From positions 1-48,762 of the forward strand of contig NZ_JAQSEA010000115.1 of NCBI RefSeq assembly GCF_029946185.1: 48,762 nucleotides of DNA, written 5' to 3'. The DNA comes from Prosthecobacter sp. Lineage in GTDB: Bacteria; Verrucomicrobiota; Verrucomicrobiia; Verrucomicrobiales; Verrucomicrobiaceae. A program made the translations under genes and the position numbers. This document shows, one piece after another, positions 28,168 to 34,018 of this stretch. Positions within the stretch are counted from its first letter, which is position 1. The number at the start of each line of letters is the position of its first letter. The notes under the pieces were generated by a model that saw only the letters and a list, made by a program, of their open reading frames with translations, ran no database searches and had not been told where the DNA came from.

Positions 28168-28917
28168 ATGAGGCAGCTTATTTCACCCCCTCCTCTCATC
28201 CATTTGAAATCCGGTTTCGTTCTCGCTTGCGCACTCGTTGGCGCGGGGCTTGCCATGTCGGCCCCGATGGCGGAGAAGCGCACGGATGATCCGGGGGCAA
28301 GTTCTGACATCGCACTGCTGCGGCTGAGCTACGAGCGCGAGCTGATCGAAGAGAGCCTCGCGCCGGTCAAAGAGCAGATCACCACGCTGGGCACACTGGA
28401 AAAACAGTTCGCCGCCGAGCGTGATTACGACGACGCCATCACCGCACGCGATGAACGTAAGCGTTTGCAAAACGAACTGGCCCGGCTGGACAAGGAGCTG
28501 CTGCTGCTGCAAACACGCGAGCAGACACTCAAGACCTCGCTGCTGCCGGACCGCATCAAGCTCCCGCTCGACGCTGCCACTTTGAGCGATCTGCGGCTCG
28601 ATGGCGGTGCCATCACCGGATGGTCCAAGGTCGGAGCCTCCGCCACCTGGAAGCTGCCCGCGCTGCCCCCTGGGGGGTATGAGGTCATGCTGCGTTACCG
28701 CTGTGGTACTGCGGAAGGTGGCAGGCTGCTGATCAAAGAAGCGCGCTTCACCCTCACCACGAACATCGAAACCACGCTCAAGGGCCCGGAGGAGCGCAGC
28801 GCAGGCACGCTCAAAATTAGCGATGGCTCAGGCACGCTGACACTCTCTGCACAGGCGCTGGTCACCGACAATCTCATGCAACTGCTGGCCGTGGAACTCG
28901 TGCCAGCCACCCGATGA
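28168..28917 (+). CDS. Exported coiled-coil and beta-sandwich protein 1
   Basis: This is the first gene of a four-gene operon and encodes a 249-residue protein. A signal peptide (LKSGFVLACALVGAGLA) is followed by a long charged helix or coiled coil (about residues 45-125) containing the pattern RDYDDAITARDERKRLQ. The C-terminal part (about 135-249) is beta-rich: WSKVGASATWKLPALPPGG and a final TDNLMQLLAVELVPATR, resembling galactose-binding-like or DUF5077-type sandwich modules that bind glycans. No catalytic motif is visible. The stop overlaps the next start by 4 nt. Proteins with this helix pattern are frequent in Verrucomicrobiota but have no known function. Confidence 0.75.
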   Translation: MRQLISPPPLIHLKSGFVLACALVGAGLAMSAPMAEKRTDDPGASSDIALLRLSYERELIEESLAPVKEQITTLGTLEKQFAAERDYDDAITARDERKRLQNELARLDKELLLLQTREQTLKTSLLPDRIKLPLDAATLSDLRLDGGAITGWSKVGASATWKLPALPPGGYEVMLRYRCGTAEGGRLLIKEARFTLTTNIETTLKGPEERSAGTLKISDGSGTLTLSAQALVTDNLMQLLAVELVPATR

Positions 28918-30413
28918 AACGCTCCCTGCCAGCCCTGATTTTCGTTCTGCATGCCTGCGCGGTATTGCTGGCGCAAACACCCGCCCAGGAGCCGGCCGCA
29001 CTCACCGTCACACGCTTGGCATTCATGCGCCAGGTCATGGCGGATTCTCAACTGCTCACCCAGCAGTACGAACGCGCGCTGGCAAAGGTGGAAACCGAAG
29101 TCGCCACGGCGGGTGACTATGAGGAGGCACGCGCCATCCGCATGCGCCGCGAACAATTGCAGGCGCTGTACGCCGGCACAGCATCCAGTCTCGCCACGCC
29201 CCTGCCCCTCACCCAGGCCCGAATGATGGGATCCGCCCAGGCCTCAGGCGAAACACTCGGCGGCTGGCGCTCCAACGGCAGCGGGGCGGAGTGGCTGAAT
29301 TTCCGCCTCACACCGGGCAGCTACCACATCGAATTTGAAGCCAACATGAGTGACGCCCCCGTCGCAGGCAGCATCTATGCCTCTTCCAAGTTCCAGCCGC
29401 AGCAGACCGCCTTGTTTGGATTTGATGAAGTCACGCTGCTGGGCATCGCCGCAGAAAATCACCGCACTTTTGAAATCACCCGCAGCACGGATGAAACCAC
29501 GTTCACCACGGTGCGTGTGGGGCCGCTGACCTTCAGCCGCAATCCTGCCACGCTGCGCTTCACCGCTGCGAATGGATATCCGGCCAACATCATCCGCATC
29601 CGCAATCTACGGCTGGTCCCCGTCACAGACGCCACCGCCACCAGCACGCCCCCACCCACGCAGAGCGGCTCCACCACAGCGATGCAGATGGCCAGCACGA
29701 CTCTGAAAGACGCCATCGGTACCGCAAGGACAGCCGCAGCCGCCAAGTATCTCGACGATTTAAATGATCTCGCAGTGACCAAGCCCGCGCTGAAAGGACA
29801 GATCGATGCCGAAATCCGCCGAATGAAGCGTTTGGAAGATCAAAAAGCAGGACGCTCGGGCGTCAACGCGATCACGACGACCGGCGGTGGTTTCAGTGGC
29901 TTTGAAAGCATCAGCGATGCCCGCCTCGCGGATGAAGAGCCACTCTCCGGCGAACGCTTCAAGGTGGTTTACGAAGGTCGCACAATGATGGTGCGTCTGC
30001 TGTGGATCGACTGCGCGCCGCTGGAGGAAAACACCGCACCTGAAGTGAAACGCTTCGCCAAGCATTTCGACATCGAGGATGAGGATGTGCCAGCCGTGGG
30101 TCGTGCCGCACGCGAATTCACCGCCAGTTATCTGCGCGACAAACCCCTCCGCCTGCTGATCCGCCCGGATCCCGACAAAGACGGCACCATGGCCGCGCTG
30201 CTGTTTTTGCCGAATGTGGGCCTGTATCAAAACGTGCTCGTCAATCACGGGCTGGCAGCCGTGGTGGCGCCTGCGCGTGAGAAACAGCACAACGCCATGG
30301 AGCGTGCCTTTCTCTCCACGCTGAGCGCCATTGAAAACACCGCCAAAAAACGCCGGCCAGCGCCCGGCGCATGGGCGCTCTCCGCTGAGAGTCATGAAGG
30401 GAAGGCACCATGA
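28914..30413 (+). CDS. Exported coiled-coil, beta-sandwich and SNase-like protein 2
   Basis: This 499-residue protein is the largest of three related ones. Its parts, in order, are a signal peptide (MKRSLPALIFVLHACAVLLA), a coiled coil with GDYEEARAIRMRREQLQ (about 50-90), a beta-sandwich with GAEWLNFRLTPGSYHIEF (about 110-240), a Ser/Thr-rich linker, a second helical segment, and a C-terminal SNase-like domain (about 345-470) with MVRLLWIDC at 359-367 and VGRAAREFTASYLRDK. The Arg that pairs with this site in active thermonucleases, in a DRYGR-type loop, is replaced: the loop reads KDGTMA. A non-nuclease or altered role is therefore possible. It overlaps both neighbours by 4 nt. Confidence 0.78.
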   Translation: MKRSLPALIFVLHACAVLLAQTPAQEPAALTVTRLAFMRQVMADSQLLTQQYERALAKVETEVATAGDYEEARAIRMRREQLQALYAGTASSLATPLPLTQARMMGSAQASGETLGGWRSNGSGAEWLNFRLTPGSYHIEFEANMSDAPVAGSIYASSKFQPQQTALFGFDEVTLLGIAAENHRTFEITRSTDETTFTTVRVGPLTFSRNPATLRFTAANGYPANIIRIRNLRLVPVTDATATSTPPPTQSGSTTAMQMASTTLKDAIGTARTAAAAKYLDDLNDLAVTKPALKGQIDAEIRRMKRLEDQKAGRSGVNAITTTGGGFSGFESISDARLADEEPLSGERFKVVYEGRTMMVRLLWIDCAPLEENTAPEVKRFAKHFDIEDEDVPAVGRAAREFTASYLRDKPLRLLIRPDPDKDGTMAALLFLPNVGLYQNVLVNHGLAAVVAPAREKQHNAMERAFLSTLSAIENTAKKRRPAPGAWALSAESHEGKAP

Positions 30414-31177
30414 AGCACCTGCTTATGATCACCGCAGGCCTGCTGCTGCTTGCTGGCCTTACCACAGCCCAGCAGCCCGCGCCTTCTCCCGCCGCCCCCG
30501 CCGCCCCTGCTGCGGGTGCACGCCTGGAGCAGATGGAGGGCATCTACCAGAAGGAGCTGAGCGCACGGCATATTCCTCTGCTTGGCAAGTATCTCATCGA
30601 ATTGCAACGGCAGGCCGCCACCGCCACCGACAAGTCTCCCTACACCGCAGAAATCGCCCGCATCCAGCAAATCATCAGTGCAGGCGGGGTGCTGGATTTG
30701 ATCGCCACCCAGCAGGCGCAGTCCGGCACCATGCCCATGCCGGCCCCCATGCCAGCCCCGGTGCCCATCGAGCAAAAACAAGCCCTCATCGCGCTGTCAC
30801 CCGCACTAGCACAGAAGGTCACACCCAAAGCTCCGGCAGATGCGCAAACCGCCACCATCGGTGAGATCGAGTGGCGCATCGAATTCATCGCTGCTGGCAC
30901 GTATGACATCTTGCTGCATTACGCCTGTCCGGAACTAACGGAACCGCTGACAATCGTGATCGAATGCAACGGCCAGACACTCGAAAAAGAACTGGCTGTC
31001 GAGCGTGCAACCAAAGATGCCCAGTCTTTCCGCATCCTGAGACTCGGCAGCCTCACCTTGACCAGTGATCTTCGCGGCGAGACACTGCGCCTCAGCGCCG
31101 GTGACAAAGTCAGCCCGCAACTCATCGTGAAAAGCCTGCTCATCACCCGGCCAAAACCTCCCGCCCTCAATCCCTAG
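30410..31177 (+). CDS. Exported coiled-coil and beta-sandwich protein 3
   Basis: The third member is 255 residues: a signal peptide (MKHLLMITAGLLLLAGLTTA), a Pro/Ala-rich linker, a short helix with EGIYQKELSARHIPLLGKY and LIELQRQAA, an MPMPAPMPAPVP linker, and a C-terminal beta-sandwich (about 150-250) with IEWRIEFIAAGTYDILLHY and final LIVKSLLITRP. The helix and sandwich correspond to those in the two preceding proteins, so the three are probably ancient paralogues. No catalytic residues are obvious. It overlaps the preceding gene by 4 nt and lies 4 nt before the deacetylase gene. Its function is unknown; an extracellular binding role is inferred. Confidence 0.75.
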   Translation: MKHLLMITAGLLLLAGLTTAQQPAPSPAAPAAPAAGARLEQMEGIYQKELSARHIPLLGKYLIELQRQAATATDKSPYTAEIARIQQIISAGGVLDLIATQQAQSGTMPMPAPMPAPVPIEQKQALIALSPALAQKVTPKAPADAQTATIGEIEWRIEFIAAGTYDILLHYACPELTEPLTIVIECNGQTLEKELAVERATKDAQSFRILRLGSLTLTSDLRGETLRLSAGDKVSPQLIVKSLLITRPKPPALNP

Positions 31178-31181
31178 CGCC

Positions 31182-32495
31182 ATGCGTTTTGTCCTTCCGT
31201 TTATATTTGTTGTCCTCGCTTTAGGCACACTGCCTTCCTGCAAGCGAATCGAGGCCAAACTGCAACGCCTTGCCGAGCAAAGCGGCGTGACCCCGAAACC
31301 GCCTTCACCCACCCCCGAGGAGCCTGCGCTGACGCCCGAAGAACAGGCGATCGAAAAGAAATTGCAGGAGACCGCCCTGCTGGCGGCAGCGGCACCTGTG
31401 CCGGAAATCCCGGCAGGCCCTGCCTTTGAACTCAACAAATCCTCCGTCGTCTCCATCCTTGGCTACCATGATTTCAAAGATCGCGGCGGCAGCCCCATGC
31501 TGATAGCCGAGCCCAAGTTCCGGGCGCAGATGCAGGCCATCAAGGACTCCAAGATCCCTGTCATTTCATTCAGCGAAATGATGGCATGGAAGCGTGGCGA
31601 GAAGAATATCCCCGAAGAAGCCATCGTCATCACCATGGATGACGGCTGGGAGGGTGTGCACACCTATGCCTATCCGGTGCTGCGTGAGTTCGGCTTCCCC
31701 TTCACCATCTACCTCTACAAAAACTATATCGGCGGTGCTGGCCGTTCGATGAGCTGGGAGCAGATCAAAGAGATGATGCAGCACGGCTGTGAAGTCGGCA
31801 GTCACAGTGTCTCCCATGCCAGCCTCAAGACCCCGCCAAAGAACTTGAAGACGGATGCTGATAAGCAGCAGTGGGTCTTGCGTGAGCTCAAGGACTCGCG
31901 CGAGTTTTTGGAGCAAAACCTGCACATCAAATGCCTCTCCTTCGCCTATCCCTATGGCAGTTTCGACGATGCCATCATGGAGACAGGACTGCAAATCGGC
32001 TACGAATCTCTCGTCACTGTCAACGGCCAGAAAGTCAGCTGGGACACCCCAAACGGGAAGCTTGGCCGCTACATTGTTCATGGTGACAACGACATCAATT
32101 TCAAGCTCGCCACCAGCTTCCGCGGTCGCGGTGATGTGGGTTCCAATAAGTTCCTCGTCGCTGACGCCAAAAACGACCAGGGCGAACAGCTCATCCAGTT
32201 CAAGCCCAAGCCGGATGCCGTCATCACCGATCGCCGCCCCCTGATCGAGGCTGATTTGAAAAAAATCGGCACCATCATGCCGGAGAGCATCAAGCTGCGC
32301 ATCGCCGGCCTCGGCACCGTGCCCGTGGATTATGACCCGGCCACCATGGTCGTACGCTTTCAGTTCCCCTACAAACTGCGCCGGGAAGATTGCGCTCTCA
32401 GCCTCAGCTTTCAGCGTGATGCCACCCAGCCCCCCGAAGTCGTGAGCTGGCGCTTCAAGATCGACCTTGAGTCGGCTTACATGCCCCCTCCCTAG
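31182..32495 (+). CDS. Polysaccharide deacetylase lipoprotein (NodB domain)
   Basis: The 437-residue protein has a lipoprotein signal (LGTLPSC lipobox, Cys at about residue 20) and a Pro/Glu-rich linker. The NodB domain (about 85-300) begins VSILGYHDF and shows motif 1 TMDDGW (Asp153, Asp154), motif 2 HSVSH (His208, His212) and motif 3 FAYPYGSFDD, so the metal site and catalytic base appear intact. A C-terminal beta domain (about 330-437) follows. It should deacetylate an N-acetylated glycan at the periplasm or cell surface, like PgaB or chitin/peptidoglycan deacetylases. As last gene of the operon it may act on the glycan bound by the three preceding proteins. Confidence 0.88.
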   Translation: MRFVLPFIFVVLALGTLPSCKRIEAKLQRLAEQSGVTPKPPSPTPEEPALTPEEQAIEKKLQETALLAAAAPVPEIPAGPAFELNKSSVVSILGYHDFKDRGGSPMLIAEPKFRAQMQAIKDSKIPVISFSEMMAWKRGEKNIPEEAIVITMDDGWEGVHTYAYPVLREFGFPFTIYLYKNYIGGAGRSMSWEQIKEMMQHGCEVGSHSVSHASLKTPPKNLKTDADKQQWVLRELKDSREFLEQNLHIKCLSFAYPYGSFDDAIMETGLQIGYESLVTVNGQKVSWDTPNGKLGRYIVHGDNDINFKLATSFRGRGDVGSNKFLVADAKNDQGEQLIQFKPKPDAVITDRRPLIEADLKKIGTIMPESIKLRIAGLGTVPVDYDPATMVVRFQFPYKLRREDCALSLSFQRDATQPPEVVSWRFKIDLESAYMPPP

Positions 32496-32584: not shown

Positions 32585-34018
32585 ATGTTCTCCGCTCTCT
32601 CTGAAAAACTCGAAAGTGCCTTTAAGAAACTGCGCGGCCAGGCCCGCATCAGTGAATCCAACGTCACGGACGCCATGCAGGAAATCCGCATGGCCCTGCT
32701 CGAAGCAGACGTGGACTTCAAGGTCGCCAAAGATCTCGTCGAGACCGTCAGCAAACAGTCGATCGGCGCAGAAGTACTGCTCAAGGTTTCCCCCGGGCAG
32801 CAGATCGTCAAAATTTTCCATGATGAGCTGGTCAAGCTGCTGGGCAGCGATGCTAGCGCGCTGAACGTCGATCCCCCGCAGCGCATTCTTGTGACCGGCC
32901 TCAATGGTGCCGGTAAAACGACGACCTCCGCCAAGCTGGCCAACTGGCTCAAAAAACAGGGCCGCCGCCCATTGCTCCTCGCGCTGGATCTCTACCGCCC
33001 CGCCGCCATCAAGCAGTTGCAGGTGCTCGGCCAGCAGCTCAATGTGCCCGTGTTTGCACCTGCAGAAGGTGAAACAGATCCGGTGAAGGCCGCCAAGGCC
33101 GCCATGGTCTGGCTCAAGGAACAAGGCAGCGGAGTCGCCATCTTCGACACCGCCGGTCGTCAGGATCTCGATGAAGACCTGCTCGCGGAACTCAAGCGCG
33201 TGCGCGCCGTGGTGGAGCCGAATGAAGTCCTGCTGGTGGCAGACGCTGCCACAGGTCAGCAGGCCGTGAGCGTGGCGCAAAAATTCAATGCCGCCGTCGG
33301 CATCACGGGCCTGATCATGACCAAGCTCGATGGCGACGCCCGTGGGGGTGCCCTCCTGTCGATGCGCCAGGTCACCGGCTGTGCCGTCAAGTTCCTCGGC
33401 GTGGGTGAAAAGATCGAGCAGCTCGAAATTTTCCATCCCGACCGCATGGCGCAGCGCATCCTCGGCATGGGAGACGTCGTGGGCCTGGTGGAGAAAGCCG
33501 CCGAAGAGATCGACGAGAAGGAGGCCATGAAACTGGCCGCCCGCATGCAGTCGAACAAGTTCGATTTCACCGACATGCTCGCGCAAATGCGCATGATGAA
33601 GAAGCTCGGGCCCATCGGCGGCATCCTCGGCATGCTCCCCGGCATGGGCAAGATGAAGGACATGGTCGGCCCCGATGCTGACGACCGCATGAAACACGTC
33701 GAGGCCCTCATCCTTTCGATGACGCCCAAGGAACGCCAGCGCCCGGAAATCATCAACGGCCAGCGCCGCAAACGCATCTGCAACGGAGCAGGACGTCCCG
33801 TGATGGAAATGAACCAGCTCCTCAAGCAGTTCGAAATGATGAAAAAGCTCATGAGCAACAAGGGCATGATGGCCCAGATGATGGGCGGCATGATGGGAGG
33901 CGGCGGCGCAGGTGGCGGGATGGGAGGACTCGGAGGTCTGGGTGGAATGCTCGGAGGTGGCGGCGGTGGCAAAATGCCCAAGCTCCCACCCGGCATGAAG
34001 TTCCCTGGCAAATTCTAA
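32585..34018 (+). CDS. ffh: Signal recognition particle protein Ffh
   Basis: This 477-residue GTPase binds 4.5S RNA and signal sequences for cotranslational membrane targeting. Its N-domain helices precede the G domain, with P-loop GLNGAGKTTTSAKL (most bacteria have GLQGSGKTTT, a mild difference), DTAGRQ, TKLDGDARGG and LGVGEKIEQLEIF. The M domain contains the Met-rich GPIGGILGMLPGMGKM and the RNA-binding RRKRICNGAG. The tail is an unusually long Gly/Met-rich low-complexity stretch. Length is typical. It follows the deacetylase operon with 89 nt between and precedes the Gfo/Idh gene by 24 nt, so it may lead that transcript. Confidence 0.97.
   Translation: MFSALSEKLESAFKKLRGQARISESNVTDAMQEIRMALLEADVDFKVAKDLVETVSKQSIGAEVLLKVSPGQQIVKIFHDELVKLLGSDASALNVDPPQRILVTGLNGAGKTTTSAKLANWLKKQGRRPLLLALDLYRPAAIKQLQVLGQQLNVPVFAPAEGETDPVKAAKAAMVWLKEQGSGVAIFDTAGRQDLDEDLLAELKRVRAVVEPNEVLLVADAATGQQAVSVAQKFNAAVGITGLIMTKLDGDARGGALLSMRQVTGCAVKFLGVGEKIEQLEIFHPDRMAQRILGMGDVVGLVEKAAEEIDEKEAMKLAARMQSNKFDFTDMLAQMRMMKKLGPIGGILGMLPGMGKMKDMVGPDADDRMKHVEALILSMTPKERQRPEIINGQRRKRICNGAGRPVMEMNQLLKQFEMMKKLMSNKGMMAQMMGGMMGGGGAGGGMGGLGGLGGMLGGGGGGKMPKLPPGMKFPGKF

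Follow-up and report, generated by a model that had tools for sequence, protein, structure and literature searches.

A three-gene cassette of paralogous hairpin-sandwich proteins in Verrucomicrobiales and its clade-specific deacetylase neighbour

Three paralogous genes at the locus

The stretch of DNA considered here, referred to as the window, comprises 48,762 nucleotides of Prosthecobacter sp. (contig NZ_JAQSEA010000115.1 of assembly GCF_029946185.1). It carries four open reading frames (ORFs), P1 to P4, which lie on the same strand with two 4-nt overlaps and then a 4-nt gap ahead of P4 (Table 1). This arrangement, a trio of genes followed by a gene for a NodB-type lipoprotein, had been described in an initial annotation and is borne out by the ORF coordinates and by the match of P4 to the NodB domain (PF01522, 80.7 bits for a cut-off of 23.1). 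Signal-like N-termini, judged by eye, are found on P1, P2 and P3, in line with the signal peptides ascribed to the trio, and also on P4. All four are real genes under purifying selection, since the ratio of non-synonymous to synonymous substitution rates (dN/dS) is low (0.07-0.17 overall), with values of 0.09-0.17 for P1-P3 and 0.07-0.08 for P4, each compared with three close relatives. The start of P1 at 28168 is probably too early: in three relatives (L045-L047) the frame offers no start ahead of the residue that corresponds to TTG 28204, which argues for this codon as the true start and for a protein of 237 aa.

Table 1. Coordinates of the trio, the deacetylase gene and ffh in the window
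Feature	Coordinates	Strand	Description
P1	28168..28917	+	predicted exported protein, helical hairpin and beta-sandwich, 249 aa as ORF; fold assigned by homology to P2
P2	28914..30413	+	predicted exported protein, 499 aa; hairpin 28-87, sandwich ~103-236, second hairpin 253-310, SNase-fold domain ~326-488
P3	30410..31177	+	predicted exported protein, 255 aa; hairpin 35-91, low-confidence linker, CBM6/CBM35-fold sandwich ~124-250
P4	31182..32495	+	CE4 (NodB-domain) polysaccharide deacetylase lipoprotein, 437 aa
ffh/SRP54	32585..34018	+	PF00448 (231.9 bits), PF02978, PF02881; outside the trio

Homology and predicted structure support P1, P2 and P3 as three paralogous, putatively exported proteins, each consisting of a helical hairpin followed by a beta-sandwich. 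The P1 and P2 profiles align over 190 columns (E 3e-12) and the P1 and P3 profiles at a probability of 90% (E 1.6e-6), while P2 and P3 give a weak alignment at the second hairpin of P2 only (55%, E 1e-4). Structure prediction, which the initial annotation had proposed for all three proteins, was run for P2 (mean predicted local distance difference test score, pLDDT, 75.5; predicted template modelling score, pTM, 0.39) and for P3 (mean pLDDT 73.5, pTM 0.48). Both models show a hairpin and then a sandwich with identical strand order. By the profile alignments and the models together, the sandwich stretches pointed out as similar do correspond across the trio. The (G/R)DY(D/E)xA helix motif attributed to all three proteins is a feature of P1 (17/25) and P2 (21/33) and is found in none of 32 P3 sequences; the looser form xD(Y/F)xxA behaves in the same way (24/25, 31/33 and 0/32, respectively). 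The alignments exclude G021, whose P2, located on a contig of 3.2 kb, is reported with a single in-frame stop, and the P3 alignment (A3) excludes L066, the end of which reads N. The same helical hairpin also precedes differing C-terminal regions in small exported proteins at L208 (3816-4466, -), L219 and L222; L219 has four such proteins in tandem, as if the hairpin were a reusable module.

The order of the three genes is well kept. P3 directly follows P2 in 32/33 loci of the genus, the contig ending at the remaining one. P1 lies immediately ahead of P2 in 24/33; it is missing from that position in eight loci, and one is at a contig end. At all ten loci examined outside the genus, which represent eight further genera of the family, P1, P2 and P3 are consecutive and in the same order; the earlier expectation that the genes stay together in relatives thus holds for the trio, and fails for the four-gene set (see below). 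P1 is present in 45/48 genus genomes, including 33/33 of good quality, as one strong copy each, with a second, weak match in two of them. The named records include Prosthecobacter, Brevifollis and Verrucomicrobium, and from them the family (f1) takes its name here, Verrucomicrobiaceae; in Brevifollis, P1 has neither P2 nor P3 within 8 kb on either side. The gene caller labelled no trio gene in L169 and no P4 in L184 and L185, loci that are covered by the other analyses.

The reading that we favour, while giving it somewhat less than an even chance, is that the trio forms an envelope or matrix scaffold, i.e., three exported, non-enzymatic paralogues acting in one complex, with P4 independent of it.

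The sandwich fold and its possible ligands

The sandwich of the P3 model is closest to carbohydrate-binding modules (CBMs) of the CBM6/CBM35 type, with a best match to 5fui (Z 12.4 over 112 residues, 2.3 A) and top rows that are mostly CBM6/35. For P2, the rows listed by the structure search are taken up by SNase (staphylococcal nuclease) matches, and its sandwich was placed by strand order, that of P1 by homology only. On this basis the sandwiches do appear to fold alike, as the initial annotation had anticipated. None of P1-P3 has a Pfam CBM match above cut-off, and CBM_35_2 is reached by one of 31 P3 rows at E 0.24. Homology nevertheless leads to glycan-active enzymes: the P1 profiles (A1 and the broader A5, built from several families) match domains at the C-termini of sulfatases and of GH29 fucosidases, as well as a two-sandwich lipoprotein of the window's own genome. 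The ten such relatives that were scanned comprise seven GH29 fucosidases, one SAM-domain protein, one phosphoesterase-domain protein and one lipoprotein, and several of them match DUF5077, CBM_6 or CBM_35_2, in part above and in part below cut-off. The trio therefore resembles CBM6/CBM35 and DUF5077 (PF16871) in the fold of the P3 sandwich and through these profile relatives, but differs from them in having neither a Pfam CBM match nor an attached catalytic domain and in being a three-gene set with helical hairpins. Likewise, the C-terminal sandwich carried by sulfatases and by fucosidases of family GH29 in the phylum is of the same family as that of the trio, yet these proteins are enzymes, while an intact enzyme domain is lacking from the trio. 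Altogether, fold and homology support a trio of predicted glycan-binding folds, which is the part of the earlier proposal, a glycan-binding trio with a modifying enzyme, that can be retained; the partnership with P4 cannot.

Two relatives of the sandwich deserve description. In the window's own genome, L207 (4161-5183, -) encodes a lipoprotein-like protein with two tandem sandwiches (DUF5077, 50.4 bits), and a similar gene is found in L216. At L210 (3241-4323, +), SAM domains are joined to a sandwich of the trio's family.

As the main alternative, the sandwiches could bind protein, and the trio would be a complex of envelope proteins that lacks a glycan ligand. We consider this somewhat unlikely: it would fit the lack of a fused enzyme and of Pfam CBM matches and a fold that is common to non-CBM jelly rolls, but the nearest profile relatives outside the cassette are mostly carried by glycan-active enzymes, the SAM-domain and phosphoesterase proteins excepted. 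The trio could instead capture external polysaccharide as food, much as glycan-binding proteins at the cell surface do in utilisation loci. The CBM fold would suit such a role, and a sulfatase gene (PF00884) and esterase-domain genes do lie close to the trio within the window. Against it, the trio is a core element of the family with one strong copy per genome, and its neighbours differ between clades; food capture is therefore improbable in our view, and a scaffold that binds glycan of the cell itself is preferred.

P4, an independent core deacetylase

P4 residues C20, D153, D154, H208 and H212 are invariant in 18 sequences, and we take the Asp-Asp pair and the HxxxH motif to be the metal-binding and catalytic residues. 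The catalytic domain resembles that of the CE4 deacetylases PgaB and IcaB, but P4 was rejected as a PgaB equivalog, scoring 75.7 bits against TIGR03938, far below the cut-off of 321.9, with only residues 91-306 aligned; it also differs from them in being an order-wide gene, often located beside ffh. Indeed, P4 is found in 46/48 genus genomes (two copies in G022), in 138/141 genomes of the order, families f2 and f6 included (two matches in three genomes), and in 26/194 genomes sampled from the phylum. Even two genomes of 0.9 Mb retain a P4 relative; in this and in its recurrent place directly ahead of ffh, the deacetylase behaves like a housekeeping gene.

The initial annotation had treated the four genes as one operon, in which a glycan-binding trio would be served by a dedicated deacetylase. 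The 4-nt overlaps and gap speak for such a unit, and so does the presence of P4 after P3 in 18/33 genus loci, within one clade; of the others, 14 lack it and one is cut by a contig end. Yet among the 44 genus genomes that have both P1 and P4, the two genes lie at most 4 kb apart on one contig in 21 and do not in 23 (two of these on short contigs), and in the other genera of the family they are on different contigs or more than 100 kb apart in 12/12 genomes, both comparisons being made by hand. Conversely, the trio is absent from all 19 other P4 loci, five of which are genus loci picked as already unlinked, and ffh lies directly downstream of P4, on the same strand, at nine of these 19, in six families. 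The two genes also differ in range, P4 reaching 138/141 order genomes and P1 75/141. In a tree of 41 P2 proteins, which covers the 33 genus loci rather than the further genus genomes surveyed for P4, linkage to P4 requires two changes within a single clade (100/99 support), explained by a gain combined with a loss (G016) or by two gains. P4 is thus an independent core gene of the order and a clade-specific neighbour of the trio. Because P4 is independent and is still followed by ffh in the window, where the SRP54 domains of the latter were confirmed, the four-gene run is best described as the place where two units meet, the trio on one side and P4-ffh on the other. A conserved four-gene operon is rejected on these counts, and the idea of one functional unit with a dedicated deacetylase is left with little probability.

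A cassette of the order and its proposed complex

The segment of P2 at residues ~326-488 has the fold of an SNase (Z 15.4 across 133 residues), as had been noted from the sequence. Its PF00565 score (18.3 bits) is under the cut-off of 21, and a PF00565-type match at E 0.01 is reached by 10/33 P2 proteins. Catalytic positions were compared in one alignment of 42 P2 proteins (33 from the genus and nine from other genera, L157, the tenth of the latter, being outside the count) and 12 standalone SNases of the order, L206 included. We name these positions after the S. aureus enzyme and take E43 and R87 to be the catalytic Glu and the second Arg. The Glu is found in 0/42 P2 proteins versus 11/12 standalone SNases, and the second (last) Arg in 1/42 (one gap) versus 12/12. 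The second Asp is kept in 14/33 genus sequences and 0/9 from other genera, while the first Asp position is D or E in 40/42 and the first Arg is kept in 36/42. Eleven of the 12 standalone SNases keep Asp, Arg, Asp, Glu and Arg; in L206 the set is reduced to the first Asp and the last Arg. Three more distant relatives are also without the Glu, and two of these, L171 and G038, have the last Arg. Judged from these aligned positions, the P2 domain shares the fold of the staphylococcal nuclease (thermonuclease) family but has lost its presumed catalytic residues, the second Asp being variable; the SNase fold would thus be reused without them in a predicted exported protein. That P2 is an active extracellular nuclease, and that the trio handles extracellular DNA, is highly improbable, since the fold and the largely retained first Asp and first Arg positions are offset by the loss of the Glu from every P2 protein and of the second Arg from nearly all. 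Standalone SNases with the catalytic positions kept occur at L195-L204 and L077, and several of the host genomes also carry P2.

Versions of the cassette, denoted A-B-C, are found in two or three further families. With a threshold of E 0.001, P1 relatives occur in 75/141 genomes of the order; in some cases they are no more than sandwiches on sulfatases. The broader A5 profile matches 35/288 phylum genomes at E 1e-4, the distant matches being mainly single sandwiches or hairpins; with it, seven f2 genomes give only such partial matches. Nineteen loci of other families were decomposed into their parts. Three consecutive hairpin-sandwich genes are present in seven (L073, L165, L167, L168, L169, L174 and L247), and L249, with overlapping frames, is a possible eighth; among the rest, L171 consists of five frames, L172 of one fused protein and L252 of a lone SNase. 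Gene B encodes a hairpin-sandwich-hairpin followed by a further sandwich (most f4 loci), by the SNase domain (the window's family and f5) or by nothing (L165, L247), and in L247 and L171 the SNase lies on a separate sandwich-SNase gene. L172 encodes a single protein of 846 residues with three hairpin-sandwich units and an SNase domain. The P1 profile is the best fit for its first unit and the P2 profile for its second; the third is the sole unit with a clear P3 match (2e-6). This natural fusion provides a Rosetta-stone argument that the trio acts as one complex.

Together with the gene order and the relocation of the SNase domain, the fusion points to a hetero-oligomer. It is possible, if doubtful, that in much of Verrucomicrobiales the A-B-C cassette yields an extracytoplasmic hetero-oligomer in which the hairpins zip three CBM-fold paralogues around a dead, relocated nuclease-fold domain. 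In the proposed mechanism, P1-P2-P3 would be an old A-B-C cassette of the order whose products act as one complex, held together by pairing of the helical hairpins. Each sandwich would bind one of the cell's own glycans, in the envelope or the matrix, as suggested by the fold and by the relatives on fucosidases and sulfatases, and the SNase-fold domain of P2 would serve as a binding or assembly surface rather than as a nuclease. An envelope or matrix location, and a housekeeping scaffold rather than a substrate-capture system, would agree with a core gene in one strong copy with no fixed catabolic neighbours. P4, itself an independent core deacetylase, would have come to be placed in line with the trio in a single clade related to Prosthecobacter.

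Several observations weigh against the scaffold reading. The eight genus loci that lack P1 beside P2-P3 imply that co-transcription of all three genes is not obligatory, and eight of the 19 other-family loci show two cassette genes only, some of them at contig ends. Genomes of f2 and f6 have no P1 match in the order search, so that the function of the trio is not universal in the order. The third unit of L172 matches P1 (1e-9) better than P3, and the fusion occurs in one genome only, no second full-length fusion being found among the 74 genomes of that family that were searched. Similar hairpins are present in unrelated small exported proteins. L171 and G038 (outside the family) keep the second Arg of the SNase domain, and L171 also keeps both Asp. 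Finally, the P3 sandwich resembles the Cry4Aa toxin (Z 11.6) and laminin (Z 10.6) too, so that the fold does not fix the ligand.

To our knowledge, few envelope components of Verrucomicrobia have been characterised. The three-gene cassette is apparently undescribed, as the initial annotation had supposed: among the papers listed by searches of an open-access library, no title or abstract opening describes it, subscription papers lying outside this scope, and such proteins are not mentioned in the passages of PMC3444138 examined. If the hetero-oligomer reading is right, nothing comparable to this scaffold of the envelope or matrix would have been described. With its family-wide occurrence and one naturally fused version, the cassette of three genes offers a concrete and testable candidate complex, and the analysis separates it from a core deacetylase that only looks like a partner in one clade.

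Other features of the locus were also surveyed. A phage origin of P1-P3 was rejected, as no PHROGs match was better than E 0.05 (P4 has one, at E 4e-5), and a defence origin was rejected in the absence of PADLOC matches. The promoter scan returned no promoter-like site, and the terminator scan 11 terminator-like sites for a shuffle mean of 5.0. In eight distinct other-genus loci (L155, L156, L157, L159, L161, L162, L164 and L109; L106 and L155 are one contig, counted once), a chorismatase-like gene lies directly upstream of the trio, with an FkbO/Hyg5-like N-terminal domain in 3/3 of those scanned.

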